64,000 nt of DNA from Auriscalpium vulgare (lineage: Eukaryota; Basidiomycota; Agaricomycetes; Russulales; Auriscalpiaceae): contig JAHBBC010000010.1 of NCBI GenBank assembly GCA_019915015.1, forward strand, positions 62,001 to 126,000, in the 5' to 3' direction. Made by a program: the position numbers and the translations under genes. The first letter of the stretch is position 1. Each line of letters begins with the position of its first letter. The notes under the pieces are model-generated. The model saw only the letters and a program-made list of their open reading frames with translations, searched no databases and was not told the DNA's origin. Positions 38,638-61,722 of the stretch are shown in pieces.

Positions 38638-38744
38638 GGGGATCCCGCCATGACCAGGCGGATGCCGCCCGGTCTGTGCGCCGCTCGGGAGCCCCGCAAC
38701 CATCGCCGCCCGCCGCCGTCGGTGCGCCTGGTCTGTGCGGGCCG

Positions 38745-40305: not shown

Positions 40306-40668
40306 ATGTCAACCGTTGTGCGCCGCGCCATCAGGGAGTTCCTCGAGGTACGTTGCTGGCTTGCTGCGCGTGCTGGCTTAGTCGTATCCATCCAGGACGA
40401 GGACAGGTACGACGACTTCGTGCGCCGCGTATCCGAGAGTAGTGTGGGCGAGCAGGTATGGCCGCGACCGGGGAGCAAGCAGAGTCACGCGAGCGAGGTC
40501 GCATGGTTCATCGGCGGCTCGAACAGCACCGAGCAGCGCATCCTTGTACTCCGCGTACACCCTGTCCGCGCCCTGATCAAATTGGCGTTCGACATCGACG
40601 CGCCGCCGACCCTCCACGCGTTCGTCCAACAATGGCGCGCTCGGATCTGGACCACGCGCCAGGTCTGA
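40306..40668 (+). CDS. Small hypothetical protein
   Basis: Exons 40306-40347 and 40396-40668 around a 48-nt intron (40348-40395, GTACGT..TCCAG) give 104 aa. The product begins MSTVVRRAIREFLE and continues DEDRYDDFVRRVSE, VAWFIGGSNSTEQRIL and LIKLAFDIDAPPTLHAFVQQW. Codon use and composition look genuine, but I do not recognise the family. The intron is in frame, so an unspliced protein is also possible. Confidence 0.45.
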   Translation: MSTVVRRAIREFLEVRCWLAARAGLVVSIQDEDRYDDFVRRVSESSVGEQVWPRPGSKQSHASEVAWFIGGSNSTEQRILVLRVHPVRALIKLAFDIDAPPTLHAFVQQWRARIWTTRQV

Positions 40669-40949
40669 TCTAGTTCGGGGTCTAGTCTGGGAAACGTCAG
40701 CAAGCCGTAGAGCGGGTGGAAAGAAGACAAAGAATGCGCAAAGCCAATGCAGCGGCGGTTAGAATCGGTGAAAGGCAACTGTAAATAGCACCCTCCTCTC
40801 GCACCCTTGTACATACAGAGACGCTACGTTAACTTGTAAACGGGACTCGTCATCTTGTCTTTGAATGCAGCGTCGGCACCTGCCAGCAGACGTCCATAAC
40901 GGGATGCCTGCCTGTTGCCCGTGGGGCATCAGCGTTCTTCTTCTTCGTG

Positions 40950-42780: not shown

Positions 42781-42784
42781 CACG

Positions 42785-42848
42785 CGCGCATGAAAAACGC
42801 GGGCCAGATTGTGCGTCCTCCGTGCACGCACGCATGAAAAGCGCGGGA
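42785..42848 (-). promoter_or_regulatory. Island palindrome pair upstream of the ABC fragment
   Basis: Two minus-oriented copies (about 42785-42805 and 42829-42849) of the CCGCGYTTNTCAGRCGCGCG motif, degenerate at the CAT instead of CAG position. Confidence 0.55.
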
Positions 42849-43323
42849 CGGTCTTTTGGACGCAACGGCGTGGTCGATTTGCGGCCACAGCGCATACAGC
42901 TGCCGCGAGGAACACGTCTTAGCGGTGAGACTGGCGGAGGCTGGAGGACGCCTGCACTGTGTGTCCCTCCGCATGGCGATGGCTGTCGAATTGTCAGACA
43001 AGATGCCCACCAGAGTGAACTGCCCACATACTGTGACCGGGTGGCCGGTTTGTTGCGAAATCCTGCAGCGATGAGCAAAGGCTACAGCGGGAACTGGAAA
43101 GGCCAGTGGGAGACGCAATCACTGAGTCAGCACAGTCAGCTTCCCACGCGCGACAATCAACAAGGAACTGCGCACGTGATGGGAACCGCGGACGCGCCGC
43201 ACTACTTATCAAGACGCGTGCCACTTGCCCTGAGCCGCTTGCCCTGAAGGCTGTGACACGGTGCAAACGCATGAGTGTATTGCACGCAGGCGTGTCAATC
43301 TAAATACCGAGAGTATAACACCC

Positions 43324-44047
43324 CTATGACTCGCTCCCGTCTACTTCCCCACGCGCTGCGCGAAGCGCGGACGTTGAGTTGTTGCGCTCGGCGGCCTCAG
43401 CGGCCTCGCGCTCAGCGGCCTCGGCACGGTCGTAATCGGACCATGTCCCATGCGGCTTTCCCCAGCCTTCGCCGTCGCCACCACCCGAGACACCACCCCA
43501 CTTATCATCCCAATGCCCCCAACTACTAGCGGCATTCGACGACCGTGCATTCTCCTCGACATCCCAGGCCCAATCCCCGGAGGAACCAGCTGGCGACACA
43601 TGGTTGCCTCCGTGTGATGACGAGGCCGCTGCCGCGGATGATGACGATGCGCGCGCGCGGACGGGTGTGGATCGCGGAGCTGTATTGGCAGAAGCGCGCT
43701 GCGGCGCAATATACGCGGGCGGGGGGGTTGGGCATGCCGGCGGAGGTGGGGCAGAGGACAGGCTCATGTTCACGATAATATCGATAAGGTCGTTCGTTGC
43801 CCGCGCGCCCTGTACTGCATCATATGCGGCGGAGAAAGTCGAAAGCTTCATGACACCGAGATCGGGGCACCGATCGCGCAGGGTACAGACGGTACTCCTG
43901 CAACGAGCTGTCAGCTAAGAGCCGTGAGCGAGAGGCAAATGCTCACCAGCTGGTGTACACCCCAGCAAACTCCGTGTTCGTCACTGCATAGTACCACAAT
44001 GTCCCGCTGATTGGGCCAGTCACGTAGCCTGGGAGAGTCGAGGACAT
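43324..44047 (-). CDS. RNase H1 N-domain-like protein, paralogue of 33292
   Basis: Exons 44047-43947 and 43897-43324, intron 43898-43946 (49 nt), 675 nt, 224 aa. The N-terminus reads LWYYAVTNTEFAGVYTSW and, after the splice, MKLSTFSAAYDAVQ. This is the same layout as the first domain of the 33292 gene, and the intron also splits the Trp codon of the ..Y/T..W motif. A Pro/Ser/Ala-rich stretch and a Trp/Gly-rich segment (GHWDDKWGG) follow. Hybrid-nucleic-acid binding is possible by family analogy only. Confidence 0.5.
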
Positions 44048-44506
44048 GGCGCCCGGGCTGAGCGGCCACAAATCGTCAACGGGGTGACACAGTAGCTGGG
44101 CGGTATTACCTTACAACGGCAGGGAGCAGGAGGGAGCGAGGCGATGGCCTTGTGCTCTCGGTAGTTATTATGCGACTGATCATATTTTGAGGTCCGATGA
44201 TGGACAGTGACTGCCGCTATACCCATCTCTCATCGTCTTCGCCTCCTTCGCTGCTGAGGGGCCGTTGATTCTCAGAGGCGAGAGACTCCGCGATCGCCGC
44301 CGCCAGGTCAAAATGTACACCGAGTCCGCCTTGTTAGAGCGGGACTGGACACAGCATCAGCTCCGCGAAATCTCGCACTGCACTATGCCCGCACCTTGCT
44401 TTCACCTCCCATCCTTTCGTTTACCGCGCTCATTGCCAACTGCCCGACTGCCGACTGCCTTTGTAACGGCGGATCTATCGGCGACATCCAGCGCGATGGG
44501 ACAGTC

Positions 44507-44573
44507 CTCGCGCGTCTGAAAAACGCGGAGCTAATTTTGCCCTCGCGCGCGCCTGAGAAACGCGGTGGCGGGT
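44507..44573 (-). promoter_or_regulatory. Island palindrome pair upstream of 44047
   Basis: Two minus-oriented motif copies (GCGTCTGAAAAACGCGG and GCGCCTGAGAAACGCGG on the plus strand) lie about 460-530 bp before the ATG at 44047. Confidence 0.55.
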
Positions 44574-44832
44574 TTTCAACAGCAGGGGTGTGTGGAAGAT
44601 ACGCGACCGTTTTTCATTCAGCACCAAACAAATAAATAAAAAAATTGGCGAGCGTGCAATAATGACAGCCGGCGGTAATCTACAAGGACGGGGGCCGGCA
44701 CGGCGATACAGTCCGCTCACTCGACGTGGGCTCTGATGCGTCGTCAGCACCAGGTAATGATTAGCAGGGGCCAAACTCACAAACGACCGCCGGGTCCGAC
44801 ACTGACGCTGACCTCCGCGTCCCCGAAGCTGC

Positions 44833-45291
44833 CTAAGAGCTGGCACCCCGCGAGGTGGAAGGGCCCCATACCGTCGGGACCCGTCGCGCCAGGCGACCGA
44901 TTGCCCGGAAGGGGATGGCCGACGCCCCCCAGCGACGCGGAAGAGCCGCAGGCCCTGGGGAAGCCCGCGAGACGTTGCGCCGGGTCCTCATGAAGGGATC
45001 GGGACGCCCCACTGGGGGGCATTGCGAGGGGCAGCTGCACGCGTCGCCCATACGCTCGTCGAGCAGGAGCTCAAAATACTCGAGCTCGGGGATTGACAGC
45101 ACCTGCATTCTCCAAACAAGTCAGGATAGCTCGCGCACGACACGGTTCATACGCACGTAGCGTCCAGGGACCCTCATAGTGACGTTGAACGCGAGGGTGA
45201 TGGTAGGTGACATGGGGCGGGTGGATGACATGGGGGTGGTGGATGGCATGGGGGTGGTGGACGACGTGGAGGTGGTGGATGACATTGACAT
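44833..45291 (-). CDS. Small two-exon protein of unknown function, paralogue A
   Basis: Exons 45291-45157 and 45102-44833, intron 45103-45156 (54 nt), 134 aa. A low-complexity Met/Ser/Thr/Pro lead (MSSTTSTSSTTPMPST) precedes SPTITLAFNVTMRVPGRY. The second exon begins VLSIPELEYFELLLDERMG. The ATG at 45213 is an alternative start. The same exon plan, with VPGRY at the splice and L-S-x-P-E-L-x-Y after it, occurs at 49929-50473. Confidence 0.5.
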
Positions 45292-45719
45292 GGGGGCGGG
45301 AGGCAAGATGTCCTGGTGGGCGCGCCGTGACCCTCGCAGTCTCTCTAGCCGACCGGAGCTCCGGACGTCGTGATGAAGACTAAAAAGACGTTATTGGTGT
45401 ACCTTGGATACAGCCATGCATTCGCTAGCATTTGCTAACCGGGTGCCTGCCAGGGTCGTATAGGGTGTTCGCTATCCTTTGCTACCCGAGCGCAAGCGGC
45501 ACTCGCTAATGCCCGATTCGAACACCTCTTTGTTATTCCGGCGCAACACGGCGACCTGAAGCGAACTGAGCCCCGTAACACGATTCCGAACTGTTAAGCC
45601 TCGGTAGGTACATTACGCGAGATAGCGTCTGGCAACGTGACGCCTCACTCAACATTCAACCACTCCGGCGGCTGGCATATCAGCGGGATCATCTTCCACA
45701 GCCTCAACTACATGAGACG

Positions 45720-46440
45720 TCAGCACGACGCGCCCAGGATGCAATGCGCACGTACACGCGGATAGGTGGCCGAGAAGCCACCCGGGATGACGACCTTGCG
45801 TTTGAACACCGACGCCGGGTAATCGCCCTCGCCTGCACGGTAGATCAGGCTCTGTTCATAGTGAGCCTGCGTCTGTCGGCCGACGTCAGTGCATGCGTGT
45901 TGGATCTGCGAAGGGACGCTCACCTGCGCCGGGAGCTGTAGGTACTGCAGCACGCTGAGTCCTCCGTTCCAGATCTCCTCGAACTTGTAGACACCCATGT
46001 AGGTGTACACGTTCGGATTGGCCCCGAGCCTCGCAATGACGGTCTCGACGGGCGGGAATTGTTCGTCCGGGCTGATGAGGCCCATCATGATGCCGGCCAT
46101 CCCAGGCTCCGGAGGCATCAACGGCTGGCGGTCGGACTGGAAGGCGTAAAGGGACTGCAAGTTGTGCTTCTTGACGAAAGCATCGTCTCCGACAATCAAG
46201 CGCTCCCTGTTGGCCATCGTCTTCATGGCGGCCACCCGTTCCAACTGCGCCAGGTTGAAAGTGCGATGCTCGTCGAGGTAGTAAGGCGGGGGGTGGATCT
46301 GGTCGGTGATCTGGGTGGCCCAGGGCGGAGCGTACACGATTGTTGGCATCTGCTGGAATGGCGTCAGAAAAGACAATACGACGCACGCATACGCCACGTA
46401 CCTCGTCCGGCCAGGTATAAGTCTCCGTACTAAGCGACAT
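45720..46440 (-). CDS. Hypothetical two-exon protein
   Basis: Exons 46440-46402 and 46352-45720, intron 46353-46401 (49 nt), 672 nt, 223 aa. It starts MSLSTETYTWPDE, continues QMPTIVYAPPWATQITDQ, and includes LERVAAMKTMANRERLIVG and VYTYMGVYKFEEIWNGGLS. I recognise no family. It lies between the small paralogue A and the TET/JBP-like gene, on the opposite strand from the latter. Confidence 0.55.
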
Positions 46441-46705
46441 TTTCGTGGCGACTTCGCGAGGACTTGCGTACAATAGTAGGGCAGCGATATGCTGAGGTGG
46501 ATGGGAGGCGGGGGATGAGCAGCTTGTCCTGCATTATATAGCTGAGACGGGCCACCAGCAGCGACTAGAAACGCACCTGTTAGGATATGCGGCTTGGCCT
46601 CGATGCTGGGGGCGAGGCACGGAGAACTGGGGGCGAGGCACGGAGAAGTCGCTGCGCCCTCGCAAGCAGCATTCGGCTTGACTGAATCGGCCACCGGCAT
46701 GCGAA

Positions 46706-47221
46706 ACGCATATCCCGCACTACGGATACCTAGGCGCGAGGAGCGCGAGGAAGGGGAGCTGGTACCGGTATGGAAGTCAGCAGGCGCGCGATCATGAGAA
46801 TGAAGTCTACGCACCGTCGTCGCAGAGATTCCACCGAGATGATCCACCGTATGCGCGCGCGCCTGAGAAGCGAACGCGGGGCATTGTAGGAAACCCGTCC
46901 ACGCACGTCTGACAAACGCGGGGCGGGCACAAGATCGTGCGTGCTGCGTCGAGGGAGTACCAAACGCATATCCCGCACTACGGATACCTAGGCGCGAGGA
47001 GCGCGAGGAAGGGGAGCTGGTACGGGTATGGAAGTCAGCAGGCGCGCGAGCATGAGAATGAAGTCTACGCACCGTCGTCGCAGAAATTTCACCGAGATGA
47101 TCCACCGTATGCGCGCGCGCCTGAAAAGCGCGGGGCATTGTAGGAAACCCGTCCACGCACGTCTGACAAACGCGGGGCGGGCACAAGATCGTGCGTGATG
47201 CGTCGAGGGAGTATTGGCATG
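46706..47221. repeat. 258-bp direct tandem duplication
   Basis: A block starting ACGCATATCCCGCACTACGG at 46706 repeats from 46964 with few changes. Each copy carries one pair of the island palindromes. A third, partial copy of the palindrome pair follows at 47300-47360. Confidence 0.85.
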
Positions 47222-47358
47222 GCCGAGGGAGTCTTTGATAGGGTCCGATCGGACAGGATCGTGGGCGATGCTTGGCGCGATGCTTGTCGGGTATGTGCCA
47301 CGCGCGCCTGAAAAACGCGGGGCATTGTAGCGTCCACGCACGTCTGACAGACGCGGGG
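46854..47358 (-). promoter_or_regulatory. Three island palindrome pairs upstream of 46440
   Basis: Minus-oriented motif copies near 46854, 46902, 47114, 47156, 47302 and 47335, each pair about 33-48 bp apart, 410-920 bp before the ATG at 46440. One member of two pairs carries an extra GAA before the final ACGCGG. Confidence 0.55.
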
Positions 47359-47361
47359 CGG

Positions 47362-48000
47362 GCACACGATCGTGCGTGCTGCGGTGTTGAACTGGGATGA
47401 GACGGACGAGCGGCGATGAGGGAGGGCTGGTATGGTCGAGGGTTCAGGGGGAAGGCAGGTGGGAGGAGAGAGAGGGGCGCGTGAACCGAAGTCGAGAGCG
47501 CTCAAGATAAGCGCTGATGAGAGGGCACGTGCAGAGCCACAAGAGAACGGCATAGCGGGCGGGCGAGTCGTGCGTACGAGGAAACGGCCAGCCAGGCCTT
47601 GAGCTTGAGGAGCGCGGACGCAGAGAGGTGTTGGGGGAGGTGGAAGAAAGCCAGTCGCTCATACCACGCCTACATGCACACATCTCCCCGCGGCCCCATG
47701 ACCAGCAAAAGGAGCAATCCACGCCGAGCGACAGCTCCGAAGCCGCCGTGTGCTCGACGCAGAGAGGTGTTGGCGGCGGGAGTTGAGTCGACAGTCGTTG
47801 GAGGTAGGTGGTGAAATTTGAAAGGACGCGCAGGCCCGCCCGGTGCCAGCGCGTCAACCAGCACAGCCACTGATGCGGCTGAGCTAGCATCAGTAGCACA
47901 GCCACTTGAAGCGGCTGTGCACCGCCGGCAGACGTCTGTTCCCCATCTCACGGTCTCACCGTTCCCCCATCGCACTGTTTTTTTTCTCAACTCGCCGCTC
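47362..48000. other. Intergenic between divergent genes
   Basis: No supported gene. A short direct repeat (CTCGACGCAGAGAGGTGTTG / GCGGACGCAGAGAGGTGTTG) is at about 47618 and 47756. Confidence 0.4.
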
Positions 48001-48057
48001 CTCGTATCCCTGACCTCCGCCCGCCATCCAACCCTCCCTGCCCCCCACCAGAGCCCC

Positions 48058-48112
48058 CGCCCGCGCTTCTCAGGCGCGCGTGCACTCTGCCCCGCGCTTG
48101 TCAGGCGCGCGT
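48058..48112 (+). promoter_or_regulatory. Island palindrome pair upstream of the TET/JBP-like gene
   Basis: Two plus-oriented copies, CCCGCGCTTCTCAGGCGCGC and CCCGCGCTTGTCAGGCGCGC, lie about 80-130 bp before the ATG at 48190. They are preceded by a pyrimidine-rich block also found at 51282, 51414 and 59894. Confidence 0.6.
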
Positions 48113-48189
48113 CGACATCACCGTTCCCCCATCGCACTGTTGCCCCATCTCGCTTTTCCTCAACTCGTAGGTCCTATCTGGTGCGCTGG

Positions 48190-49631
48190 ATGACGGGACA
48201 CAGCAGTGCCGCCGCCTCTAGCAGGAAGAGCACCTCTCGGGGGCGACTTCGTCTGCCCGCCGTCGTGCCCGAGTCTGTCCCTGGTGTTCTTCGGGCGCCA
48301 TTGCCTGCGCGTTTGCCACCACTTGCTGGCGGGTCACGCAACTCCGGACGGCCGCGAAAATCGGGGGTGTCTTTCAGGCGCCCCAACACTGCCGGTGCGT
48401 CGATTATGACGTACTATCTTATCACTCGCCTCATGAATCGCATGTAGACGCGACTCCTCGGCTCAAGAACCGCGGCATCGGCAAAGCTTTCAAGGGCTTC
48501 CACGACAGGAACGAAAAGCTGTTGCGGACAGCGCTCGACAACGCAGGTGTGTTCACTCCGAACGTTGTCATGTCGTTCGTATATCTGACGGACTTCCCAG
48601 TCACTATCCATGTGGACCTGCGCGAGTTAGCCGCCGTTGCAAGCGAGCTGAACGACGAAGGAGTCGCGGACCTCCTGGACGGCCCGCTTGCCCACCTTAA
48701 GCCGCAAAGTTTCACGGACGGGCAGCCCAGGTCCTTTTTCGACCGGAACGGCTTGCTCATCGCGTTCCACTTCCCTGGATACCTCTCGCCCTCTGTCAGC
48801 GTGCGTTCCCATCCCCTGCTACTCCTGCACTTGGCTAACCCTTGTGCTCTTCTCAAGCGGGCCCATGCGACGTATCTCGATGAGTTTGCGGACAAATTCC
48901 CGCCCCAAATGTCGGCCGATACGCTGGGGCGCGGCGCGAAGCAGGGCTACCGCGGTGAAGGAGACAACAAGGTCGGGTGCCACCATATCTCACCCGGCTG
49001 GAAGGAGATAGGAAAACCGGTGCGTCGCTTGCTTTTGTCACAGGCCACAGCAGCTGAATGACGGGCACAGAATGAACCGCTGCGGTTCAGCGGTTCGTTG
49101 GCGGGCACGAAGCCACACGCTGCTGCCACACAGCACCTGCTTTCGCAGATCCAGATCTTTCAGATGCGGATCGAGCATTTGATCGAGATTGCCACTCCCG
49201 ATGCGCACCGTGCGTATTCCAAGGCCATGGAGCACCTCCGCCAGGGTACGGAGACTGCTGTGCACGCCAACGGCTGGTCGTCATCATTCCAGGGCATTTC
49301 CATCATCTACAACCGCGAAACACCGAGCCATCGCGACGCCAAGGGTTGTCTAGCTGGGGTTGACGCGCTGTTGACGGTCGGTCCGTACCATGGTTGCACC
49401 CTCGACCTCCCCATCTTTCGTACGAGCTTGGGATACGAATCCGGTACGCTCCTTCTCCTCGTGGGCTGCATTGTACCTCATAAGGTCATGCCCTGGAGCG
49501 CCGGAGGCCAGCGATTGTGCCTAGTGCATTTTACGCACAAGGACATACTTGATGATTACGGAGTCCCCCACCCGCTGTTCACTACGTTCGAGGGGCTTCG
49601 TGCCGCTTATCCATCTCTTCCACCCAAGTAG
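48190..49631 (+). CDS. TET/JBP-like 2-oxoglutarate/Fe(II) dioxygenase
   Basis: Four exons with introns 48395-48447, 48801-48857 and 49020-49070 (51-57 nt) join to 1281 nt, 426 aa. The C-terminal half carries the double-stranded beta-helix signature: SIIYNRETPSHRD with metal ligands His327 and Asp329, a LTVGPYHGCTLDLP strand pair, GYESGTLLLLVG, the distal His377 in VPHKV, and Arg388 in GGQRLCLVHF as the likely 2-oxoglutarate-binding Arg. This arrangement, with short spacing and no CXXC or other DNA-binding domain, resembles the mushroom TET/JBP proteins that oxidise 5-methylcytosine. Substrate and activity are inferred. The basic N-terminus (exon 1) may be for nuclear targeting. It lies between two KDZ transposases. 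Confidence 0.8.
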
Positions 49632-49928
49632 AACATTGTGTACTTTCTACAATATATCTTGCGTACTCTCGATGAAACTTATTGCGTGCGGCTTGCCGAG
49701 TACCGGAGAGCGGACGCAGGAGACGCCGCCCAGCTTACTATCACATATCTTCACATGAAGGAATGGTATTTCGCGTGCAGTAACGACAGAGAGACTCGTA
49801 GGCTAGGGGGACTGCGGGGTATCCGTGCAGGGGCAGCAGTGTGGAATAAACGGCGAGGACTGATGAGAAAACTCAATGAGATGCCAAGACGCACAAGGGC
49901 ACCAACGTACCAATGACGGGCGACCCTT

Positions 49929-50473
49929 TTAGGGGGTGTGCTCTCCCTGCGCGCTCGGCACCTCCACAAACCCGTCAAAGGGACCTCCGGTGCCCAGTTC
50001 CTGGGCGGGAAGGCCCATATGCCCCTCGTTCTCCCCGCAGGCGCTCAGCGGCGGCATTCCGCCACTTGGCCGCGCCGCAGGCTCTGGCGAGTCGTCGCGC
50101 CAGACCGTCTGAACCGGGGGTGGCCGCCCAACGCGGCCGCGGCGCACGAATGGGGCTTGTGGGGCGCGCGAGGAGTGCTCGTGCGTCGTCGCCGCCGTGG
50201 GGTTGTGGGACGGCGCCGCGTTGGGTTCCCGCGACGACGTCGGGGTAGGGGGCGCCTGTGAGGGGTGCGCACCCGTGTCGCTCCTGATTGCGTACTGGAG
50301 CTCGGGCATGGAAAGCTCCTGCGCCAGCAAAACCACTCAGTATGCGAGCCGAACATAAAAATTTGTGTACGCACGTAGCGGCCGGGGACGCTCATGACGA
50401 CGGTCACGTTGAGGTTGAGGTTGATGGTGGGGGACATGGTGGCAGGAGGCAAAGAGCGGTGCGACCGTGGCAT
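49929..50473 (-). CDS. Small two-exon protein of unknown function, paralogue B
   Basis: Exons 50473-50375 and 50318-49929, intron 50319-50374 (56 nt), 162 aa. Exon 1 has SPTINLNLNVTVVMSVPGRY. Exon 2 opens ELSMPELQYAIRSDTGAHP and becomes Pro/Ser/Ala-rich. The splice falls after the same VPGRY motif as in paralogue A at 44833-45291, showing common descent. The stop is convergent with the TET/JBP-like gene about 300 bp away. Confidence 0.5.
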
Positions 50474-50530
50474 GACCAACAGACGGGCGTCCCTCGGCTC
50501 ACCGGCTTATCTGCACGCGTACCTCGCTGT

Positions 50531-50872
50531 CGCCGCCAACGCAGCTCACATCTGTGCGCGCACGTCTGAGAAACGCGGGCAAGAGGGTCGTACATGAAGG
50601 TCACAACAGTATGCGCGCACGTCTGATAAACGCGGGCTCGGTTGCTGGACTGCGGGGGAAGGCGGTGACGATGCGACGGTAGAGCGTCGATGAGAGTGTG
50701 GTCGCCGCCAACGCAACTCACATCTGTGCGCGCACGTCTGAGAAACGCGGGCAAGAGGGTCGTACATGGAAAGTCACAACAGTATGCGCGCACGTCTGAT
50801 AAACGCGGGCTCGGTTGCAGGACTGCGGGGGAAGGCGTTGACGATGCGACGGTAGAGCGTCGATCGGAGTGT
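50531..50872. repeat. 172-bp direct tandem duplication carrying island palindromes
   Basis: Two copies, from about 50531 and 50703, begin CGCCGCCAACGCA and contain CAAGAGGGTCGTACATG and GACGATGCGACGGTAGAGCG. Each holds one pair of minus-oriented island palindromes. Confidence 0.85.
50557..50805 (-). promoter_or_regulatory. Two island palindrome pairs upstream of 50473
   Basis: Minus-oriented copies near 50557, 50613, 50729 and 50785, about 85-330 bp before the ATG at 50473 (plus-strand form ACGTCTGAGAAACGCGGG and ACGTCTGATAAACGCGGG). Confidence 0.55.
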
Positions 50873-50909
50873 TGCGGTTACATCGAGTCGAGGCGCAACG
50901 AGAAAGAAT

Positions 50910-50981
50910 TGCCATGGACTGCAGAGGGTTGGCTGAAGGAGGAACTGCCATGGACTGCAGAGGGTTGGCTGAAGGAGGAAC
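50910..50981. repeat. 36-bp direct tandem duplication
   Basis: Copies 50910-50945 and 50946-50981, each TGCCATGGACTGCAGAGGGT plus 16 bases, are identical by eye. Confidence 0.85.
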
Positions 50982-51119
50982 TTCGACATCAAGCTCCGAC
51001 GTTGTAAGTCGTTAGCGCTGGCCGCGATTAGCGCTCTGACGGTGACCGCGATAAGCTTGCGATAAGCGCCCTGCTGATCTGATCGTCTTCTCCGTCGCCT
51101 CGTCACTCCACCACTGCTG

Positions 51120-51400
51120 AGCTCGCGCTCTTAGCTTTTGCCCTCGCTCCTCACCCTCTGTCACTCTCATCACCTCACCTATAACCCAAGGACCAAGCTC
51201 TCCAGCCAAGGTATGTGACCACGATCCGGTATGTAGACATTCTGACGATCGGACAGCGAGCAGCACCACCGCTCCGGCCGTATCCCTGACCTCCGCCCGC
51301 CATCCAACCCTCCCTGCCCACCACCAGAGCCCCCGCCCGCGCTTCTCAGGCGCGCGTGCACTCTGCCCCGCGCTTTTCAGGCGCGCGTTGACATCCCCAC
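51120..51400 (+). repeat. Promoter-region block shared with 59720-60020
   Basis: About 280 bp, including ATAACCCAAGGACCAAGCTC, ATTCTGACGATCGGACAGCG and a palindrome pair, is almost the same as 59720-60020. Both copies lie just upstream of different genes (51561 and 60096). The last 110 bp is repeated once more at 51414-51526. Confidence 0.85.
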
Positions 51401-51522
51401 CAACCGCTCCTCGTATCCCTGACCTCCGCCCGCCATCCAACCCTCCCTGCCTCGCACCAGAGCCCCCGTCCGCGCTTCTCAGGCGCGCGTGCACTCTGCC
51501 CCGCGCTTTTCAGGCGCGCGTC
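51337..51522 (+). promoter_or_regulatory. Two island palindrome pairs upstream of 51561
   Basis: Plus-oriented copies near 51337, 51369, 51469 and 51501, about 40-220 bp before the ATG at 51561. Confidence 0.6.
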
Positions 51523-51560
51523 GACACCCCCGATAAGCGTTCGGCGCTCCCAAACCCAAC

Positions 51561-53902
51561 ATGGCCCCCGACACCCTGAAAACATCCGCGAAGGCCAGCA
51601 GTAGCAAAAATGGCAACGACAGCAGCGTCAAGACAGCCTCCACCACGTTCACGTATCAGGACGTCATCGCTGCGGCGCAGCGAAGCGCCGCCCGGGGTGT
51701 CACCTATGTCCTTCGCGCGATGGATTGCGAAGTCCTCGCATGCTGGGATAGTGGGCGGGGCTCCGTGTGCGTCTCCAGTCCGAATACAAAATGGATTCCC
51801 GAGGTACCCACCCACCGCGAGCATCGTACCTTCAGTTACTTCGCCGACGGCATGCTCGGGCCATTCGAGCTCATGAAGTGGCCCCAGGTCTACGACGCCA
51901 TGTATCCTCATAGCTGTGCTGCCCCATTGAACCCGGCGCTTCCACTTCCCGTCTGCGACGACAGGCGTTCGCCAGTCCAATTCAAAGACACGGCCGTGCC
52001 ATGGATGCAGTGGTCGCCAAAGCTCCTCGAAGAATGGAGCCGCACGAGCAGCGCGACGATAGGGTGCCTCGCTCAAGATGTCAAGCTCCGCCTGCAGCAG
52101 GCTCACTCTGAAGTGAACGAGATGGTTGCCAAGATCGCCGCGGAACTCCCCAAGCAGTCTAAGCGCCCATTGGACGGCGACAAGCTCGACCCCGCTCTGC
52201 AGTTCGCTGAGAGGCTCCTCTCGAAGGCGAAGTCCGTGAGCGGTGTGCTGGCCGGGGAGCCGATGGCGTCGTTCGAGGTCCTCCAGTGGTTCCGGGAGAG
52301 CCAGCGCATCCTCCTCGAGCTCAGGGCCTGGGTTACCTACATGCTCGTCGTCAAGCCGAGGGTCGAGGATCCGCGCTTCAACGCCGTCGACTGCCTGCCC
52401 GTCCGCGGTATCATCACGGAGAAGGTGCTGCTCGCGGAGACGATGTTTCGTGTTGGAGTCCCGGTCTGGCTGGTGCGGGAGCCCTACACCATCAGCGACG
52501 CGACGACCGTTCTCATACCCGTGCGCCCCACACCCGTGTCGAAGTACCTGAGCAACAAGCAGTTCATGATCGAGGGTAACAAGTACAGGAGGGCGCCTCC
52601 GTGGGAAGACGGGGTGAGTCTGGACGCCATGATGGTAGGGTTCAGCGAGCAGCTTTTTCGGTTCAGCCTCAGCAGTCAGCCCCTTGTCAGCGCAAAGGTC
52701 GCACTGGGAGCGGAAGATCGCCTCGAAGCGGCGAAGGCGGAGGAAGCGGCGATGGAGGCGACGGCCACGCAGCACGGTCCGGGCCCTTCCTCAGGTTCAG
52801 GTAAGTCAGCGTTCCTGTTCATGCGGGTTGCCGCGATTTGACCTCAATCGCTATCCTCATGCTAGCACCTCGCCCGCCTGTCGGGCGCGCTCAGAAGACC
52901 GGGTCTGAGCGTTTGGCGAAGGCGGAACCGAAGCCTGCATGGCTCACCGCGGAGTGTGCCTTCTTGGCCGCTGTCATCGCGCGAGACCCTGCCCTCGCAG
53001 TAGCACATCCGCACCGGCCGCAGCTTTACCACCTCCCTCCAATTCATCTTTTCTTCAATGAAGGCAGCATCCAGGGCGGCAGAATTCACAATTGGTTAAG
53101 AATCCGGCCATGGTGCATCGCGCAAACCGTCAGGCCGCCGGAGGGGGGAAGGGTGGTTCTCACGGCTGGCCAATGGCGCATAGCTCTGGAGGGTCGCTAC
53201 TACCGGATCGACATCCCCGCCGACCGTGACATTCGGCCGCAGTCGTCGTCCGTCGACATCGGCAAGCTGCCTCCGCCCCCACCCAAAACAGGCACGGCCG
53301 CCGGCCCGCAGCGGGCCCCGGACCGGCGCACGCAGCGGCGCGCGGCCGACCGCATCGACGTCAACGTCCGCTTCGGTGTGCACGGCGGCTTTGAACCCTA
53401 CCGGGAAGAGTTTCAACCACTCTGGGGGTCGCGGGGGCTTGCCCGCGCGCAGGCAGATTTGGACACGCGGGTTTGGATGGAAGTGACGTGGGAGTTGTCT
53501 TGCATGAATTTCCGTCTCGAGCTCATGGCACTCGACCGCATCATGGATCCTGCTGCGTACTCCGAGGAGTCGGGCTGGGGCACGGCGCGCGAGGAGGAGG
53601 TCATGCTGATCTGGGAGGGCGACGGCAAGGTGCGGCCGATGTGGGATCGCCGTGAAGTGATGTGCGGGATTGAGAGTCTTACGGACGGCAGGCGGCTTGG
53701 GGCCTTCACGCGATGGGCGCGTGTGCTGAATTCTTGGCCTGCCGCGAACGGAAAGCTGCCGGAAACACCGGAGGGCACCACGCAGGATCTTTTCGAGGCA
53801 GAGATCGCCCGTTTCTACTGCTTCCAGTTCTATTCCGTGTCGGGTCGCCTACCATCGTTCCCCCTCGTCGCTCCTAGCTCATTGTCTCGTCATTATCAGT
53901 AG
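51561..53902 (+). CDS. Large conserved hypothetical protein (gene A)
   Basis: Exons 51561-52800 and 52866-53902, intron 52801-52865 (65 nt), 2277 nt, 758 aa. After a Ser/Lys-rich lead come FTYQDVIAAAQRSAARGVTY, a FAERLLSKAKSVSGVLAGEP helix region and a VLLAETMFRVGVPVWLVREP segment. The second exon opens PRPPVGRAQKTGSERLAK. It contains PPIHLFFNEGSIQGGRIHNW, LTAGQWRIALEGRYYRIDIP and FGVHGGFEPYREEFQPLWG. I know this only as an unannotated Agaricomycete family and see no catalytic motif. A further intron ending just before the terminal stop is possible. Its upstream block is duplicated at gene D. Confidence 0.65.
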
Positions 53903-54221
53903 GCCGACTTTCGGCGTGTATTTGTCATGCTCCGTATAAATGCGTCGGCGAAACCGCCCTGTGACAGATCGAGATGAGTGGGGTTGAATTTGCTAACAAG
54001 AACACTGACAGCGTCCGGGCCTCCTGCAAGGGGCAGGGCGGCGGGCTGATCTATCAGGGCGGCGGCGCGTACGGAAATGGACTACGGACTTGTTTGAATT
54101 CAGGGCCTCGGTCACGTGGCGCGGTGCGGCGCGCGGGCGCAGAGAGACAGTGCAAAGTTAAGCCCTCCCCCCCGAATGCTGGTTCGCACGTCGCTCACTA
54201 CACCCTTCACTGTCATTATTC

Positions 54222-56137
54222 ATGCCCGCCTCCTGGAAATGGCGCAAAGAGGAGACCGCCTGGTTGGCAGAGGCTTCCGACAAAGAATTCGCCGAGCGCG
54301 AGCTCGCGCCGCCTAAGGCCGCCTACTACTCTCTCGACAACATCGCTGCCAGGATCACCGACCTCTACGAGGAGCACTTCAAGGACGCTCACCAGGGGGA
54401 ATCGGAGGAAGACTACCAAGCTCGCGTCAAGAAATCGCACAAGAACAAAAATCGAAAAGTCCTCCGGATCGTCGGCGAGACTGGCGAGGAGCGTCTCCAG
54501 CGCCTTGCCGCGTGCCCCACGGTGAGTGGCCTGTACGCATCCCTGTCGCCACGGCTTGACCTGTTATCGCAGAGGATCAGGGGCTACCTTGACGGGCAGA
54601 GCGCGAGGTATTCGAAAGCGCTTCTGGCTGCTCCGCAGATAACTCGCCTCGCACCAGTTGCAGCGCCCGCGGGGTCCGCGTGGAAAGTCTTCCAGAGTGC
54701 AGACTGCACTCACCGTGACAAACCTGTCATTCAACCGGGGGAATCACCTGCGACATACCAGAAGAGGGTCTCGGCCGCCTACCATGCTCTGAGCGCAGAT
54801 GATATCAAGGCGCTCGAGGCGCTCGGTGCGGAGGAAGCGGCGCCCAGCAACAGCAGCTCCGAGGTGGAGCGCCAGAAGTAATGCCCCGTCCATCACTTTA
54901 TCGCGCAGTGACGCTGACGCCTTTGCCCTCCAGAAAAGCTGCCGGCATGATTGAGGCTATTAATCGACAGGCACAGCATTGGTACGAGGAGACGGGCTGG
55001 GTCGGTCTGTACATTGCGGGCGGTCCTTTGGAAGGTGGACGTACCGGTGCTCACATGTACGTGTTGAGCCTCCCGCACGCAAATCACCTCTCATTGCGTT
55101 ATTGTAGCATGCCGATAGGCCAGACGCCGCAAGAGGAAGACTTCGAGCAGTGGCTTGTACGCCGCACTCCAGATTGGACTTCGCAACACCTCCGGATAGA
55201 ACTCCTCGCGTTCATGGAGAAGATCTTCGGTACGCAGTCAACCTGAGGGACAGCGCAATAGGAACTGACGTACCGACGACAGGAAACCGACCCGCACTCG
55301 CCACGACGGTCGCGCCGTCAGCGGTGTCCTCAGAGAGCGTGTACGTGCCTGTTGCACACACTGCGACCGTCGACTCCCCGCTCAACGACATTGACGCTGC
55401 GCCCGACACCGCGCCCGACACCGCCGCGTCGGACATTACGCCGGTGGCCGACACCACGCTCGCTGGAGCAGACACTGCGCTCGACACCGCGCCCGCGTCG
55501 GACATTACGCCGGTGGCCGACACCGCGCTCGCTGTTGCAGACGCTGCGACGGTTGACTCCCCGCTCAACAACATGGCCACTGCGCCCGACACTGCGGCCG
55601 CGTCCGATACCTCGACGCTGCCAGAGGCCGCGTCCGACACCTCGACGCTGCCAGAGGCCGGACCGGACGGGCCGATTGCCACGCACGCTGCCGACCCCTC
55701 GGAGCCGCAGTCCGCTCCGGTCATGCTCACCGAGGCTCAACCTGCTGCCTCGCACAATAATCGCAAGGGAGCCAAGAAACGGAAGTCTGCCGCGCATGAC
55801 CCTACGGAGGCCCCGGCCACCAAGAAGCCGCGCACGAGCGAGAAGCAGGGCACAACCAAGAAGTCGCGCACGAAGGTCCCCGCTGCGGTGCCTACCGCGC
55901 CGCCGGTGGACCGTCCTGGAGCGCGGGTGCGCAAGGCATCGGACAGAGCGGCAGGACGTGAACTGTGCGTATCCCTAGCCGTCATTACTCCCCGCAGCAC
56001 ACTGACACGTTGCTAGTCAAACGTTAGCCGAGAGGCAGGAGGCGGAGCGTGCGCTCGTGCAAGCTCAAGGGGAGGCCATAGCACCCCGAGGAGCGAAGGC
56101 CGGAGTGCGCGGAAAGACGATGCCCAATCGTCGATGA
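54222..56137 (+). CDS. Multi-exon hypothetical protein (gene B), distant relative of the 28273-33000 gene
   Basis: Six exons with introns 54522-54572, 54878-54933, 55057-55107, 55230-55282 and 55965-56016 (51-56 nt) give 1653 nt, 550 aa. Parts: MPASWKWRKEETAWLAEASD, a basic helical segment (YQARVKKSHKNKNRKV), then SAWKVFQSADCTHRDKPVI, and TGWVGLYIAGGPLEGG followed by WTSQHLRIELLAFMEKIFG. The last two occupy the same order as the WFNN-to-KDKL and GW..GGP segments of the 28273-33000 gene. Exon 5 is rich in Asp-Thr-Ala-Pro repeats and then Lys/Arg-rich. It ends RKASDRAAGREL across a splice shared with gene C. Function unknown. Confidence 0.6.
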
Positions 56138-56147
56138 TCAGCGGTCC

Positions 56148-56293
56148 TATCCCCGAATTCGTGACCAATCTAGATTCTCTAAGGGTCGCTTCGCTACGTC
56201 TACCGCCTCTTTGCTCTGACTATCCCCGAATTTGTTACCAATCTAGATTCTCTAAGCGTCGCTTCGCTAGCTCTACCTCCTCTTTGCTCTGAC
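56148..56293. repeat. 73-bp direct tandem duplication
   Basis: Copies 56148-56220 and 56221-56293, each containing ACCAATCTAGATTCTCTAAG, lie between genes B and C. Confidence 0.85.
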
Positions 56294-56661
56294 GACGGGA
56301 CCGCTTTGCCGCCGACTCAGCGGAACAATGTGCCCTGAATTTATTTTAAAGGCGTCGGCAAGGCGTCGCGTATCGAGAGATTTGGTTTTCGTAAGGCTCC
56401 AGTGGTGCATGCCGAGGTACTCGCTCACGTCGGGCACCAGGGCAGGGGAGGGTAGGGGCAGACAAGAGACAAATTCTTCGAAATGCCGCCGAACGGCCGC
56501 CCAGGAGGATGGGTGGCCGCCCTGGCGCTTGAAGGTGCGGGTCTCTGTGAATCATGCGCGACGGGGATGGACACGTCAAGACATTTAAACGGATGGATTC
56601 TCACCAGAGCTCAGCACCAACCTTTCAGAACGCTCAGAACGCTTGCCATCCTTAGTCGACA

Positions 56662-59485
56662 ATGGCCCGCCTCGCTCGCACCGTCCTGCACTCGTCTCTC
56701 GCGTACAGCTCCCGTCTCAAGAGAGCTTGCTTCGTGGACGCCGAGGCCCGCAAACCCGACATCGTGGCCTCCGCCTGCTCTCACTGCGGCGCGTACGGAC
56801 GCCTGGCGATGACATACAAGCCTGAGCATGCCGGCCAGTGGCACGCAGTGGTGAGTGGCACTTTACCGGCTTGGCCTCTATCCCCGCTCAATGGACGCAT
56901 TTCGCAGTGCCTGAACGCGCAGTGCCCGTGGCGTAAGGCGGAGCGCAAGGCCCGAGCGTGGTACCCGGCGCAGGAGATGCCTACGGCTGACAGGGTCGCT
57001 GCCATCGAGGCCGTCCGCGCGGCGGATGAGGTGGCGAAGGCCACGCAGAAGATCGCTAGGGCCGCCGAGGCGAAGCACGCGAAAACGTTGAAGGCGAAGG
57101 CGAAGGTATGTACCACTCTGTCCGCTTCACGCCACTCACTGACCGTGCCGCAGGGTGGACGCGCGCGCAAGAACCGCGGGTCGCGCGGCGAGGGCAGTGC
57201 GCTGCGCGATGAGCAGATGGACGGCGACGCGCGCCTTGCCGCTTTGATCGCCGAGCAAGAGGTTGCGGGTGTGCGCGCTGCAGCCGAGCAGACAGACCGG
57301 GACTTCGCGATCGCGGTCCGCGCGGCGGAGGAGTTGGCGAAGCCCGCGCACAAGATCGCTAGGGCCACCGAGGCGAAGCACGCGAAAACGTTGAAGGCGA
57401 AGGCGAATGTATGTACCACTCTGTCCGCTTCACGCCACTCACTGACCGTGCCGCAGGGTGGACGCGCGCGCAAGAACCGCGAGTCGCGCGGCGAGGGCAG
57501 TGCGCTGCGCGATGAGCAGATGGACGGCGACGCGCGCCTTGCCGCCTTGATTGCCGAGCAGGAGGTTGCGGGTGTGCGCGCTGCAGCCGAGCAGATAGAC
57601 CAGGACATGGCGATCGCGCTCGCCCTCGTCGACGCTGACGCTGACGAGGGCGCGGAACGCAGCTCATCTGTTGTTCCAGAGTCCGTCACCCAGGAGGTAA
57701 GCAGTCATCCACGCGCCGCACCCCGGGATGCTCTCTGATGGCAGGTCTTGCAGACGATGCGCACGAGCAGCGATGGAGGAGAGGCGGATGGCTCGCGGGA
57801 CCCGTCGGGCGACGGCGACGCTCCCGCCGACGGCGACGCACCCGGCGATGACAGAGACGACGGCGATCGGAGCGATGGCGATGAGGCTGGCGGTCTTCCT
57901 GTGAGCCCGCCAGCGTACAAGGGCATGCGGATCACGTTGTGGCGGGCGGTGCGTTCTGACATCCACTTAGGCTGTAGGCTGACGCTGATCGGCTCCGTCA
58001 ACAGGGACATCTACGCTACGCTTTTCGACACATCCTGTGCACCGCCGAGTTCATCCCTGCGTACGCGATCACCTTGGAAGAGATGGAGGCCGCCGGGTTC
58101 GCAAACAACACCCAGACCCAGTACTGGGACCCCGCTCGCACCAGGTGGGCTCCGGATAACTACCAACGCTTTGATGACCCGATCCCACTCCCGGATGCGG
58201 CGCAATACGTTCTGATTCGCGCGCGAGACACCCACGGCGATGTCCTCAACAGTTTCGGGACGGAAGTCCGGTGGCTGGAGAGCCAGACGCCACTCGAAGG
58301 GCTGCCATTCACCGTCGTCGGACTGCACGGCTCCGTCGAACCCCTCCCGGAGCCCACCCAAGACGCAGATGGCGCCACTGCCGCCGAACCCCTCCCGGAG
58401 CCCACCCAAGACACTGATGGCACCACTGTCGCCACCGAATCGCCTCCTCCTTCATCGCCTCCCCCTTCCCTGCGGGCCACCGCCGGTTCTACGAGCGCTG
58501 ACGCCGCCCAGGCGATTTCCCCTCCGCCGCCGTACTCGTCTGTCGTCGGAGGTCGCGGTCGTGACGACGCGCCGATGGTCGACTTGGAGGCTCTGCGGGC
58601 TCGTCGGCTCCAGCGTCACGACACGGCGTTCTACGGAGAGGATCAGCTGGGAAGGGGCCCGTGGAGTTTTGTAGTCCCAGGCGCCTTCAGGCCCACGAGG
58701 TCGCCGCCGATCGAGAGAATCTGGGCTAACGCAGCCGGGGGGCGTGTACAGCCGATGGGGCGTGGCGAGGGCTCGTCGACTGGACCGCAGCAAGGACGTG
58801 GTGTCAAGAGGCCGGGCGAAGACGACCACGTGGAGGGTTCGTCGACTGGACCACAATCTAAGAGACGTGCCCTCGATGCGCCGCCTGCGACCGATGTCGG
58901 ACGGCGTGAGCGTAAGGCTACGGACAGAGCGGCTGGGATTGGACTGTGAGTACTATGGTTTGTGTGTGTCAATAGCAATCTCCTGAGCCTTCCATCAGCC
59001 GGACCCTGCTCGACAAGAAGACCGACGCCGCCCGCACCTATGCCCGATCGCCCGCCGCCCTCTCATCCGCCGCGCCGACGTCCGCCGCCCCGTGGTCTCG
59101 TGTGCCCGCGCCCGCCGCCGCGCCCTCCGCCGTTTTTGGTGCGCGTGCAATGGGGGCAGGCACGTCCTCCGCCACCACGTCCTCCGTCCCCGCGAACGGT
59201 CGCCCGTCCACCCCAGTGTTTGGGGCGCCGACGTCCTCCGCGACCAGGTCCTCCACGCCCTCCGCCGCTTTTGGCGCGCGTGCATTGGGGGCAGGCACGT
59301 CCTCCACCACCGCGTCCTCGTCCACCGCAGGCACGTCCTCGTCGGCCACGTCCAACGCCGTCCCGTGCACCGTCAGCGACAGCGACAACGACGACGACCT
59401 TCACTCCGAGTGGGTGTGGATTCGGGGCAAGTTTGTGAGGGTTTGGGACCTCACAAAGCCTACCAAAAGGAGGCGTACCGACTAG
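56662..59485 (+). CDS. Multi-exon protein with CxxC motifs and internal duplication (gene C)
   Basis: Seven exons with introns 56851-56907, 57106-57153, 57409-57456, 57697-57744 (or to 57753), 57949-58004 and 58946-58998 give 2514 nt, 837 aa. The N-terminus has ACSHCGAYGRLAMTY and, after the first splice, QCLNAQCPW, a possible zinc site. Two near-identical Ala/Glu/Lys-rich blocks of about 85 residues follow (GGRARKNR..ALRDEQMDGDARLAAL). Then come an acidic Asp/Gly stretch, a folded-looking segment (HLRYAFRHILCTAEFIPAYA, YQRFDDPIPLPDAAQYVLIR), a Pro-rich region and RKATDRAAGIGL. The end has Ser/Thr/Ala repeats and a final acidic HSEWVWIRGKFVRVWDL. Four introns are in frame. No known family. 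Confidence 0.6.
57010..57615 (+). repeat. 303-bp intron-plus-exon tandem duplication in gene C
   Basis: The first copy (about 57010-57312) and the second (about 57313-57615) match closely, including the 48-nt intron GTATGTACCACTCTGTCCGC.. at 57106 and 57409. The period is 303 bp (101 codons), so the frame is kept. Confidence 0.9.
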
Positions 59486-59719
59486 GCCACTGGCAATGCA
59501 ACGTCGCTCACGGGCGCACATAATTTCTTAGCACAAATTCCATTTCGTCTGTCCTTAAATACAGTTTCGTTTTTAATGAGAACTTGTCTGTGCCATGTGA
59601 AAGGTGTGAACGTGTGGATTATACCAACTACGCTACGTTGTGATGTGAGTGGTCACTGGTGAAGACAAACGATCACGTGGTTCCGGTATATGCCGGGACC
59701 TGATAGGCGCTCGGCTTCT

Positions 59720-60020
59720 CCGTCGCCCACCAGCTCGCGCTCTCTAGCTTTGCCCTCGCTCCTCACCCTCTCTCCCTCTCATCACCTCACCCTATAACCC
59801 AAGGACCAAGCTCTCCAGCCAAGGTATGTGACCACGATCCGCTATGTAGACATTCTGACGATCGGACAGCGAGCTGCACCACCGCTCCGGCCGTATCCCT
59901 GACCTCCGCCCGCCATCCAACCCTCCCTGCCTCGCACCAGAACCCCCGCCCGCGCTTCTCAGGCGCGCGTGCACTCTGCCCCGCGCTTTTCAGGCGCGCG
60001 TTGACATCCCCACCACCGCT
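59720..60020 (+). repeat. Promoter-region block shared with 51120-51400
   Basis: Second copy of the block described at 51120. It includes ATAACCCAAGGACCAAGCTC and ATTCTGACGATCGGACAGCG and ends about 75 bp before the ATG of gene D. Confidence 0.85.
59949..60002 (+). promoter_or_regulatory. Island palindrome pair upstream of gene D
   Basis: Plus-oriented copies CCCGCGCTTCTCAGGCGCGC and CCCGCGCTTTTCAGGCGCGC lie about 95-145 bp before the ATG at 60096. Confidence 0.6.
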
Positions 60021-60095
60021 CCTCGTATCCACTCCGCCATCCAACCCTCGCTGCTCCCCACCAGAGCCCTATCTGTGCTGCCTGCAGATCACCCG

Positions 60096-61104
60096 ATGCA
60101 AGCGAGACAAGGCTGGCAGAAGGGCCGTCAAAGGCGCGGTTCCGGCCATGGCCCAGCGCAAAAGGGGCCGAATTACGAGGGCATCGGGTGCTACTACACG
60201 CTCGATTCGCGTGCTAAGACTGGCCCGGAAGCGTCGGAGCCGGAGCTCATCTCCAAGAAAAAGAGAGGGACCTACTCCGAGCGCAACGTCTTTCTCCGGC
60301 ACTACCCCAAACGCGGAGACGGCACATTTGTGTTGGACGAGTTCCTGGAGGGCGCACATGACTCGGACGACGACTACTGGGGCGATAGCGACGTCGACGG
60401 GACAGGTGCGTAGTGCATTCATTAATCCGACTTGCGCGGCTCATCGCAATGCAGGGTTCGCGATGGTCTCTGTGGTCGCCCCAGCGCCGGCAACCTGCGA
60501 CACAGGTACCTCCAACGACCCGAATGTCGCCCCACCGGGCGCAGCCCCTTCGACGACCGCGACGACCGCGACGACCGCGACGACCGCGACGACCGCTCCC
60601 TTGACCGCCGCCCCGTCGACGGCCGCCCCATCGATTGCCACCCGGAAGATGTCAGTGCAGGAGTGGAAGCAGCGGCGGCGCATGGGTGGTGAGCCCGAGG
60701 ACTGGACAGGCCCTGCCGCGGCGCGCGGGCAGTTCTGGACGCCTGCTGGGCAAAAGGCAGGCCCGGAGGCACCTGTGCTACATGGGCAGATGGGCTCAGC
60801 AGCCCTCCCTGGGTTGCCCCTCTCACCCACGGGCGGCGCGCAGGCACCCAAGCGTCGCAGGCCGCGCAAGCGTCGCAATGGGTCGCCGGACCGCTCTCGC
60901 TCCCCCATCCGCCGGGAGTTGTCTCCGGCGCGACGTCACGGTTCACCCAGGCGCAGCTCGTCCCCTGGGCGCGGGGACAGGTCTTCAGCGCGTCGCGCAA
61001 GGACCCCTCCGCGCCGCGCCGGATCGCCTGTGCGGGCGCACGGCCATCCTGGGGGAAGTTCTACGCGGCCCGCGGAAGCCGCATCCACTTCGCGCATTCG
61101 TTAG
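60096..61104 (+). CDS. Hypothetical protein with Arg/Ser-rich tail (gene D)
   Basis: Exons 60096-60405 and 60455-61104, intron 60406-60454 (49 nt), 960 nt, 319 aa. The start is the first ATG in frame; an upstream exon cannot be excluded. Exon 1 ends in an acidic segment (GAHDSDDDYWGDSDVDGT). Exon 2 has a Thr-Ala repeat, MSVQEWKQRRRMGGEPEDW, and then an RS/RP-rich C-terminus (RSRSPIRRELSPARRHGSP) like that of splicing-associated SR proteins or other nuclear factors. No RRM is present, so the role is unknown. Confidence 0.55.
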
Positions 61105-61190
61105 TACTTGAACTGGGGTGGGTTGGATCGAGGCGCGGCCCTCAAAACGTGTTCACCCTATGCCACTAATATACAGCCTGCCGTATTTAC

Positions 61191-61297
61191 ATGTACAAGT
61201 AGTCGTGGTCACAAAAAAACGCCCGTATTGTCGCCAAAATTTATATGTACAAGTAGTCGTGGTCACAAAAAAAAACCCGTATTGTCGCCGAAAAGAG
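61191..61297. repeat. 54-bp direct repeat
   Basis: ATGTACAAGTAGTCGTGGTC followed by an A-tract and CCGTATTGTCGCC begins at 61191 and again at 61245. Confidence 0.85.
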
Positions 61298-61430
61298 TGT
61301 GAAGCCGGGACGGCGGGAACCCGGCCCGATGCAGATGTTGTCGTTTGTTTGCGCCGCGTCAACGGCGCCCGCGATTCAGAGCTCGCCATCCACCAGCAAC
61401 CATCCCCGCCGTCAATCGTGCCCCGCCTCG

Positions 61431-61687
61431 CCGCGTTTATCAGACGCGCGTTGAGCGCACCCTCCGCCGTCTACGTGCCCCGCCTCGCCGCGCTTATTAG
61501 GCGCGCGTTGAGCGCATCCACCACCGTCAAGCCTACCTCGCCGCGCTCGGAGCCCCCGCGACTCAGAGCTCGCCATCCGCCAGCAACCGTCCCCGCCGCC
61601 AATCTTGCCCCGCCTCGCCGCGTTTATCAGGCGCGCGTTGAGCGCACCCACCGTCAAGCATACCTCGCCGCGTTTATCAGACGCGCG
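61431..61687 (+). promoter_or_regulatory. Four island palindromes upstream of KDZ-2
   Basis: Plus-oriented copies near 61431, 61488, 61618 and 61667 (CCGCGTTTATCAGRCGCGCG type) lie 36-290 bp before the ATG at 61723. Each is preceded by CTCGCCG, unlike the copies elsewhere. Confidence 0.6.
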
Positions 61688-61722
61688 CCGTGGGTTAGAA
61701 CGTTCCGAGCCAGAGAAGATCC

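Follow-up and report, generated by a model that had tools for sequence, protein, structure and literature searches.

In the 64,000-nucleotide (nt) stretch of the Auriscalpium vulgare genome analysed here (contig JAHBBC010000010.1, positions 62,001 to 126,000; hereafter the window, in whose numbering positions are given), a Kyakuja-like giant DNA transposon carries a foldable 20-bp motif in pairs ahead of eight gene starts, always in the orientation of the gene. The motif is specific to this one transposon family and, beyond chance, absent from the rest of the genome. Judged from sequence, there is about an even chance that the element's transcripts carry the pairs in their 5' leaders as family-specific tandem RNA stem-loops, read by a putative factor.

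An oriented motif pair at the gene starts of one transposon

The motif, CCGCGYTTNTCAGRCGCGCG, has 26 matches at up to three mismatches, all of which fall in the span 42783-61687; the expected number is 0.21 (standard deviation 0.41, shuffle maximum 1). None of 100 shuffles reached this count, and the first 42 kb of the window hold no match at the same threshold. Its form in this element, family 1 in what follows, is CGCGY-U[UNUCA]G-RCGCG, which is foldable as a hairpin. The copies make up 13 pairs with a start-to-start spacing of 31-58 bp, and all 13 are oriented like the next downstream gene, the gene models being partly those of an earlier note on this DNA and partly our own, both derived from sequence. 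That note had described about 24 copies, paired 30-55 bp apart and missing from the first 42 kb, at eight loci with uniform orientation; the absence, the pairing, the loci and the orientation all stand, while copy number and spacing shift to the values given above. What does not stand is the independence of the eight, since the TET/JBP gene and genes A and D have one duplicated leader block in common, leaving six independent sequence contexts. These flanking contexts differ from each other, and the 20-bp motif is all they have in common. For that reason it is improbable that leaders were simply duplicated from gene to gene with a functionless hairpin on board. Such duplication has evidently occurred, both in the common block and in the internal tandem copies upstream of gene B and the 46440 gene, but it leaves unexplained the agreement of six contexts in the motif only, as well as the paired hairpins with compensated changes that are kept in other families.

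At most of these genes the motif occupies the position expected of a 5' untranslated leader. From its end to the start codon there are 13 nt at the ABC-transporter fragment (ATG 42769), 35 at the KDZ transposase gene (ATG 61723), 40 at gene A, 78 at the TET/JBP gene, 85 or 121 at gene B, which has two candidate ATGs, and 95 at gene D (ATG 60096). The proximity claimed earlier, 36-130 bp at five genes, thus becomes a nearest-copy gap of 13-121 nt at six of the eight gene starts. By our gene models the element has about twelve genes, and roughly four go without the motif: a paralogue of gene B near 45234, genes near 54222 and 56662, and one on the minus strand near 66.0 kb. Scanning blind and strand-symmetrically for similar hairpins in tandem gave 15 detections in the 25.5 kb of the element within the window, of which 12 fall on motif pairs (one in a shifted register) and three in plain tandem repeats, compared with four in about 86 kb outside the element (three in 38.5 kb, one in 15.6 kb and none in 31.7 kb).

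Across the genome, 105 sites match with up to two mismatches, and 97 of them lie inside five copies of the element (25, 25, 25, 14 and 8). The eight left over by subtraction are at the level of a reversed control, which gives ten; the motif is therefore an element of one transposon family, and a host promoter element is ruled out. An even scatter over the genome, which the earlier note had named as speaking against its proposal, is not what we find, and the shared, oriented, gene-proximal element that it proposed is supported. Its expectation of enrichment near KDZ or TET genes in general failed: there are at least 168 KDZ-domain matches in the genome (counted exon by exon), so that the motif marks one family and not KDZ genes, and a related KDZ/TET element does not have the sequence. 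The suggestion of a common regulator or start-site architecture for an 'island' captured the general idea, although what it called an island is a mobile element and the motif is foldable as a hairpin. That this element is a multi-copy transposon and extends past the window end was beyond view from the window alone. Scanning the window with Rfam 15 gave no match at gathering score, and the paired motif has no occurrence in viral or prokaryotic contig collections, which says little about fungi. In the literature searched, with subscription papers largely outside its scope, we found no described element like the paired motif.

The giant transposon and its captured cargo

BLAST against stretches of the same genome revealed five copies of the element. 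The one studied here is 29,936 bp long and continues 4.4 kb beyond the window end. Long aligned pieces are mostly 99.3-99.9% identical, with partly lower values for the C8 copy (96.8-99.6%); the copies differ by nested insertions, and left-hand parts are missing from C8 and C53. The ends read GTACTAC... and ...CCCTC and form inverted repeats of about 163 bp. Differing 7-bp target duplications flank the four copies that have both ends, the fifth, C53, stopping at a contig end. Pfam recognises the transposase (PF18758, 93 bits) with its CxC2 domain (87 bits) and, in the same element, the TET/JBP dioxygenase (PF12851, 59.7 bits). Several other element proteins, that of gene A included, have no Pfam match, and the closest protein relatives come mostly from A. 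vulgare itself. Many transposases bind short repeated motifs near element ends, and the pairs might by analogy be internal binding sites of the KDZ transposase. We regard this as very unlikely, with the outermost motif copies about 4.3 kb and 6.7 kb away from the ends and an orientation that follows the genes; as end sites proper they are an unlikely candidate, no copy being near an end.

We classify the element as a TET+ Kyakuja-like DNA transposon. With the TET+ Kyakuja of Agaricomycetes, as far as the available part of their description goes, it shares the combination of KDZ transposase and TET/JBP gene and the 7-bp target duplications (PMC12730594). According to the same partial source, Laccaria Kyakuja-1 and -2 have CA..TG ends and lack inverted repeats, unlike the present 30-kb element. 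Given inverted repeats in place of CA..TG ends, which may or may not define all Kyakuja, we keep to 'Kyakuja-like'. The Cryptococcus transposons KDZ1-3 do have inverted repeats (139-241 bp), but in the accessible sections of their description they measure about 9-11 kb, carry CxC1 and make 4-8-bp duplications (PMC12810828), compared with 30 kb, CxC2 and 7 bp here. A hairpin motif like this one is mentioned neither in the accessible sections on Cryptococcus KDZ1-3 nor in the available part of the Kyakuja description.

Diverged tandem repeats occupy 66.1-68.3 kb (L026 2100-4300), just inside the right inverted repeat. Outside the element, the window has a second KDZ transposase domain at 36923-37712 (C10:98923-99712), a repeat of about 2 kb at 28623-30596 that is also nested within the C6 copy of the element, and a tandem array of about 12 copies of a 104-bp unit at 26123-27360.

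The ABC-transporter fragment is a recently captured host sequence. Its protein is 96% identical to that of a gene outside the element (C19:663274-664326), and the DNA is 99.2% identical over 239 bp, the extent of the compared piece. Identity to the host gene sets in 12 nt downstream of the second hairpin, at 42770; the first ATG of the fragment corresponds to an internal methionine codon of the host gene (frame read by hand). As host identity starts behind the hairpin pair, the leader is the element's own and the host sequence has been joined to it. The junction invites comparison with integron attC sites, hairpins that serve cargo capture, and the pairs could be sites at which foreign coding sequence is joined in a fixed orientation. 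The chance of this seems slight: the ABC fragment is a single case, no recombinase of that kind was identified, and the transposase and TET genes, which are the element's own, likewise have pairs ahead of them.

Hairpins in related families

Homologues of gene A occur in further repeated families of this genome, and their leaders can be compared. The relatives examined comprise a related KDZ/TET element (L037, family 2) and nine upstream regions (L038-L046). In these families structure is kept and sequence differs, and several carry tandem hairpins of their own ahead of the gene A homologue. Family 2, whose gene A is nearly identical to an A. vulgare protein, lacks the motif; other hairpins, recognised partly by repeated blocks, stand ahead of its gene A and its TET and KDZ genes. 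Families 3 and 4 (L040, L041, L042) have paired palindromes of the form AGTGCAGYCT-NNAA-AGRCTGCACT; genome-wide these give 53 matches compared with 7 in the control, located at families 3 and 4 save for three rows at two other places. In families 5 and 6 (L043, L045, L046) tandem hairpins carry the loop UUUCA or UUUAA. The second of these hairpins occurs at eight exact genomic places; at three loci two places lie 14-22 kb apart, presumably within one element, and one such second site (L048) is again a tandem pair. A further pair, found by eye, precedes a gene A that is 49% identical (L038). The UUUCA-type loop recurs in families 1, 5 and 6 and in L038, on differing stems.

Of 12 regions given to a tandem-hairpin detector, L040, L041, L042 and L043 yielded similar pairs, the L043 score of 6.6 not exceeding the best of 40 shuffles (6.9). 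The detector returned no pair in L038, L039, L044, L045, L046 and three L037 regions, so that for the pairs of L045, L046 and L038, and likewise for the L037 hairpins, the basis is hairpin lists and visual reading. Among the matches listed, no Plavaka or KDZ gene lies nearby as a mover of families 3, 5 and 6. At one of the two places outside families 3 and 4, C13:1257665-1257688, the palindrome AGGGCAGCCTGTAAAGGCTGCCCT has one stem pair doubly changed relative to family 3; a Plavaka-like gene on the minus strand follows 1.3 kb downstream of it. The hairpin-free gene A homologue of L044 (C7:184801-187501) stands beside a probable VPS4-like host ATPase gene and is perhaps a domesticated or ancestral copy.

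RNA stem-loops or DNA palindromes

Copy number, confinement to the element, fixed orientation, short gaps, the ABC junction and intron-like stretches favour the overall reading of the pairs as leader stem-loops, and the gaps and stretches would agree with a place inside the transcripts. Genes A and D, which share a duplicated leader, the ABC fragment and family 5 have such a stretch upstream of their hairpins; overall 7 of 16 regions have one, with a chance of 2-9% each, and some belong to neighbouring genes. Points in favour of RNA are the nearness to start codons and several properties of the stems. In a hand-made structural alignment of three sequences from families 5 and 6, stem cells pair in 48 of 48 cases on the sense strand and in 40 of 48 on the antisense strand, with two doubly compensated pairs. 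Stem transitions on the sense strand of 49 hairpins, taken by strand-symmetric extension, comprise 20 distinct G.U columns and 3 A.C columns (p 0.0004 with loop-closing pairs omitted); no stem was obtained at two sites of family 1, and the second TET hairpin of family 2, L047 and L048 were excluded. Within family 1, positions 6 and 14 covary (C-G 6, U-A 6, U-G 4, C-A 0; 17 of 26 sites), with a score matched in 9 of 500 shuffles. The recurring UUUCA-type loop points the same way, and six leaders of other families have folding z-scores of -2.6 to -7.6 compared with shuffles.

A number of results weigh against RNA stem-loops in leaders or are neutral. The motif lies 415 nt upstream in the 46440 gene and 461 nt in the 44047 gene, and the regions L039 and L044 show no hairpin pair. 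The 20:3 ratio is partly biased, families 5, 6 and L038 having been found by a G.U-tolerant search or by eye, and some G.U and A.C columns are shared by descent; families 1-4 by themselves give 11-12 G.U to 3 A.C (a hand calculation, p about 0.03). Of the 26 family 1 sites, 11 fold better as the sense strand and 15 as the antisense strand; in family 3 one of four folds better as the sense strand, and this strand carries C.A mismatches. An extended family 1 stem was rejected, flank complementarity not being above that of permuted flanks (14 of 26 sites, p 0.25). A fold clearly better than that of shuffles is seen in only two of six family 1 leaders (z -1.8 and -2.5), and for four of the six the optimal fold has the two copies pairing with one another rather than each folding alone. 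Finally, the palindromes of families 3 and 4 are near-perfect as DNA, centre included. One hairpin of L047 repeats the family 3 C.A mismatch, provided that the gene there is encoded on the minus strand.

Part of this evidence would fit palindromes that act as double-stranded DNA: a protein encoded by the element would bind them and so activate or de-silence its promoters, perhaps together with its TET/JBP dioxygenase. By analogy with the VANC proteins of Arabidopsis VANDAL transposons, this is the main rival explanation, though a less probable one. VANC targets are linear DNA motifs for which protein binding is proven and methylation is lost, and in the portion of the account at hand they resemble the present pairs in being short, family-specific, non-coding, tandem, in one orientation and rare elsewhere, with other motifs in relatives (PMC5735166). 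They differ from the putatively protein-bound palindrome found here, which stands at gene starts. Binding as DNA would agree with the near-perfect centres in families 3 and 4, with the folding of family 1 without sense preference and with the TET/JBP gene on board. It is harder to reconcile with the sense-strand G.U excess, with sites 13-40 nt before three start codons and with stems that change while UUUCA-type loops recur; besides the CxC2 of the transposase, Pfam shows no DNA-binding domain in the element's proteins.

Element genes

The coordinates of the element, its motif pairs and its genes are given in Table 1. The RNase H1 N-terminal similarity of the 44047 gene (16.2 bits, cut-off 21) remains a lead; its two homologues are both from A. 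vulgare and have no Pfam domain. For gene A, a PDB sequence search gave one match only (E 0.98), and its predicted structure, with a mean predicted local distance difference test score of 46.7, has no fold match at E <= 0.001.

Table 1. Features of the transposon in window coordinates.
Feature	Position	Strand	Remark
Kyakuja-like giant transposon	38502..64000	+	right end at 68437, outside window; five copies, shared ends, 7-bp target duplications
Left terminal inverted repeat	38502..38669	+	156/163 bp identical to right end, which is outside window
Captured host ABC-transporter fragment	41133..42770	-	Pfam; ATG 42769; host parent at C19:663274-664326
Motif pair, ABC fragment	42783..42846	-	
Intron-like stretch upstream of ABC hairpins	42983..43031	-	
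44047 gene	43324..44047	-	weak RNase H1 N-terminal similarity, below cut-off
Motif pair, 44047 gene	44509..44565	-	
46440 gene	45720..46440	-	DUF6697 (PF20411)
Intron-like stretch between hairpins and 46440 gene start	46759..46814	-	
Motif pair 1, 46440 gene	46856..46921	-	
Motif pair 2, 46440 gene	47114..47175	-	
Motif pair 3, 46440 gene	47301..47356	-	
Motif pair, TET/JBP gene	48061..48111	+	
TET/JBP dioxygenase gene	48190..49628	+	PF12851; start matches homologue in L039
Gene B	50045..50473	-	
Motif pair 1, gene B	50559..50635	-	
Motif pair 2, gene B	50731..50808	-	
Intron-like stretch upstream of gene A hairpins	51211..51256	+	same in duplicated gene D leader, 59824-59869
Motif pair 1, gene A	51337..51387	+	
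Motif pair 2, gene A	51470..51520	+	
Gene A	51561..53902	+	two exons; homologues in other element families
Motif pair, gene D	59950..60000	+	
Gene D	60096..61104	+	
Motif pair 1, KDZ transposase gene	61431..61507	+	
Motif pair 2, KDZ transposase gene	61618..61687	+	
KDZ transposase gene with CxC2	61723..64000	+	continues past window

A possible private regulon of a transposon

Iron-responsive elements are a well-known stem-loop regulon of 5' leaders, in which a short stem with a conserved loop, in fixed orientation, is common to unrelated mRNAs. The present hairpins share these traits across unrelated genes and differ in being tandem, transposon-borne and distinct from family to family, their RNA nature being putative. 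If the motif pairs are tandem stem-loops within the leaders of the element's transcripts, a family-specific factor would recognise them, most simply one encoded by the element. The element could then control its gene set as one unit, translating its transcripts, protecting them or keeping them unsilenced, and cargo would join the set once captured behind such a leader.

How many-gene transposons of eukaryotes keep their genes co-expressed in a silencing host is an open general question. We tentatively propose that giant fungal transposons tag most of their transcripts, those of captured host genes included, with a private pair of 5'-leader stem-loops. Stem and loop would constitute a code for the family, diverging in step with a reader encoded by the element. 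Each family would thereby have an autonomous regulon and might distinguish transcripts of its own, or sites of nascent transcription, from those of the host and of rival elements. A family-confined tag at most gene starts, with other hairpins in relatives, provides a concrete handle on private transposon regulons, whether their means of action is RNA or the anti-silencing of DNA alongside a TET/JBP enzyme. The ABC capture, in turn, suggests a one-step route by which foreign cargo may come under such control.

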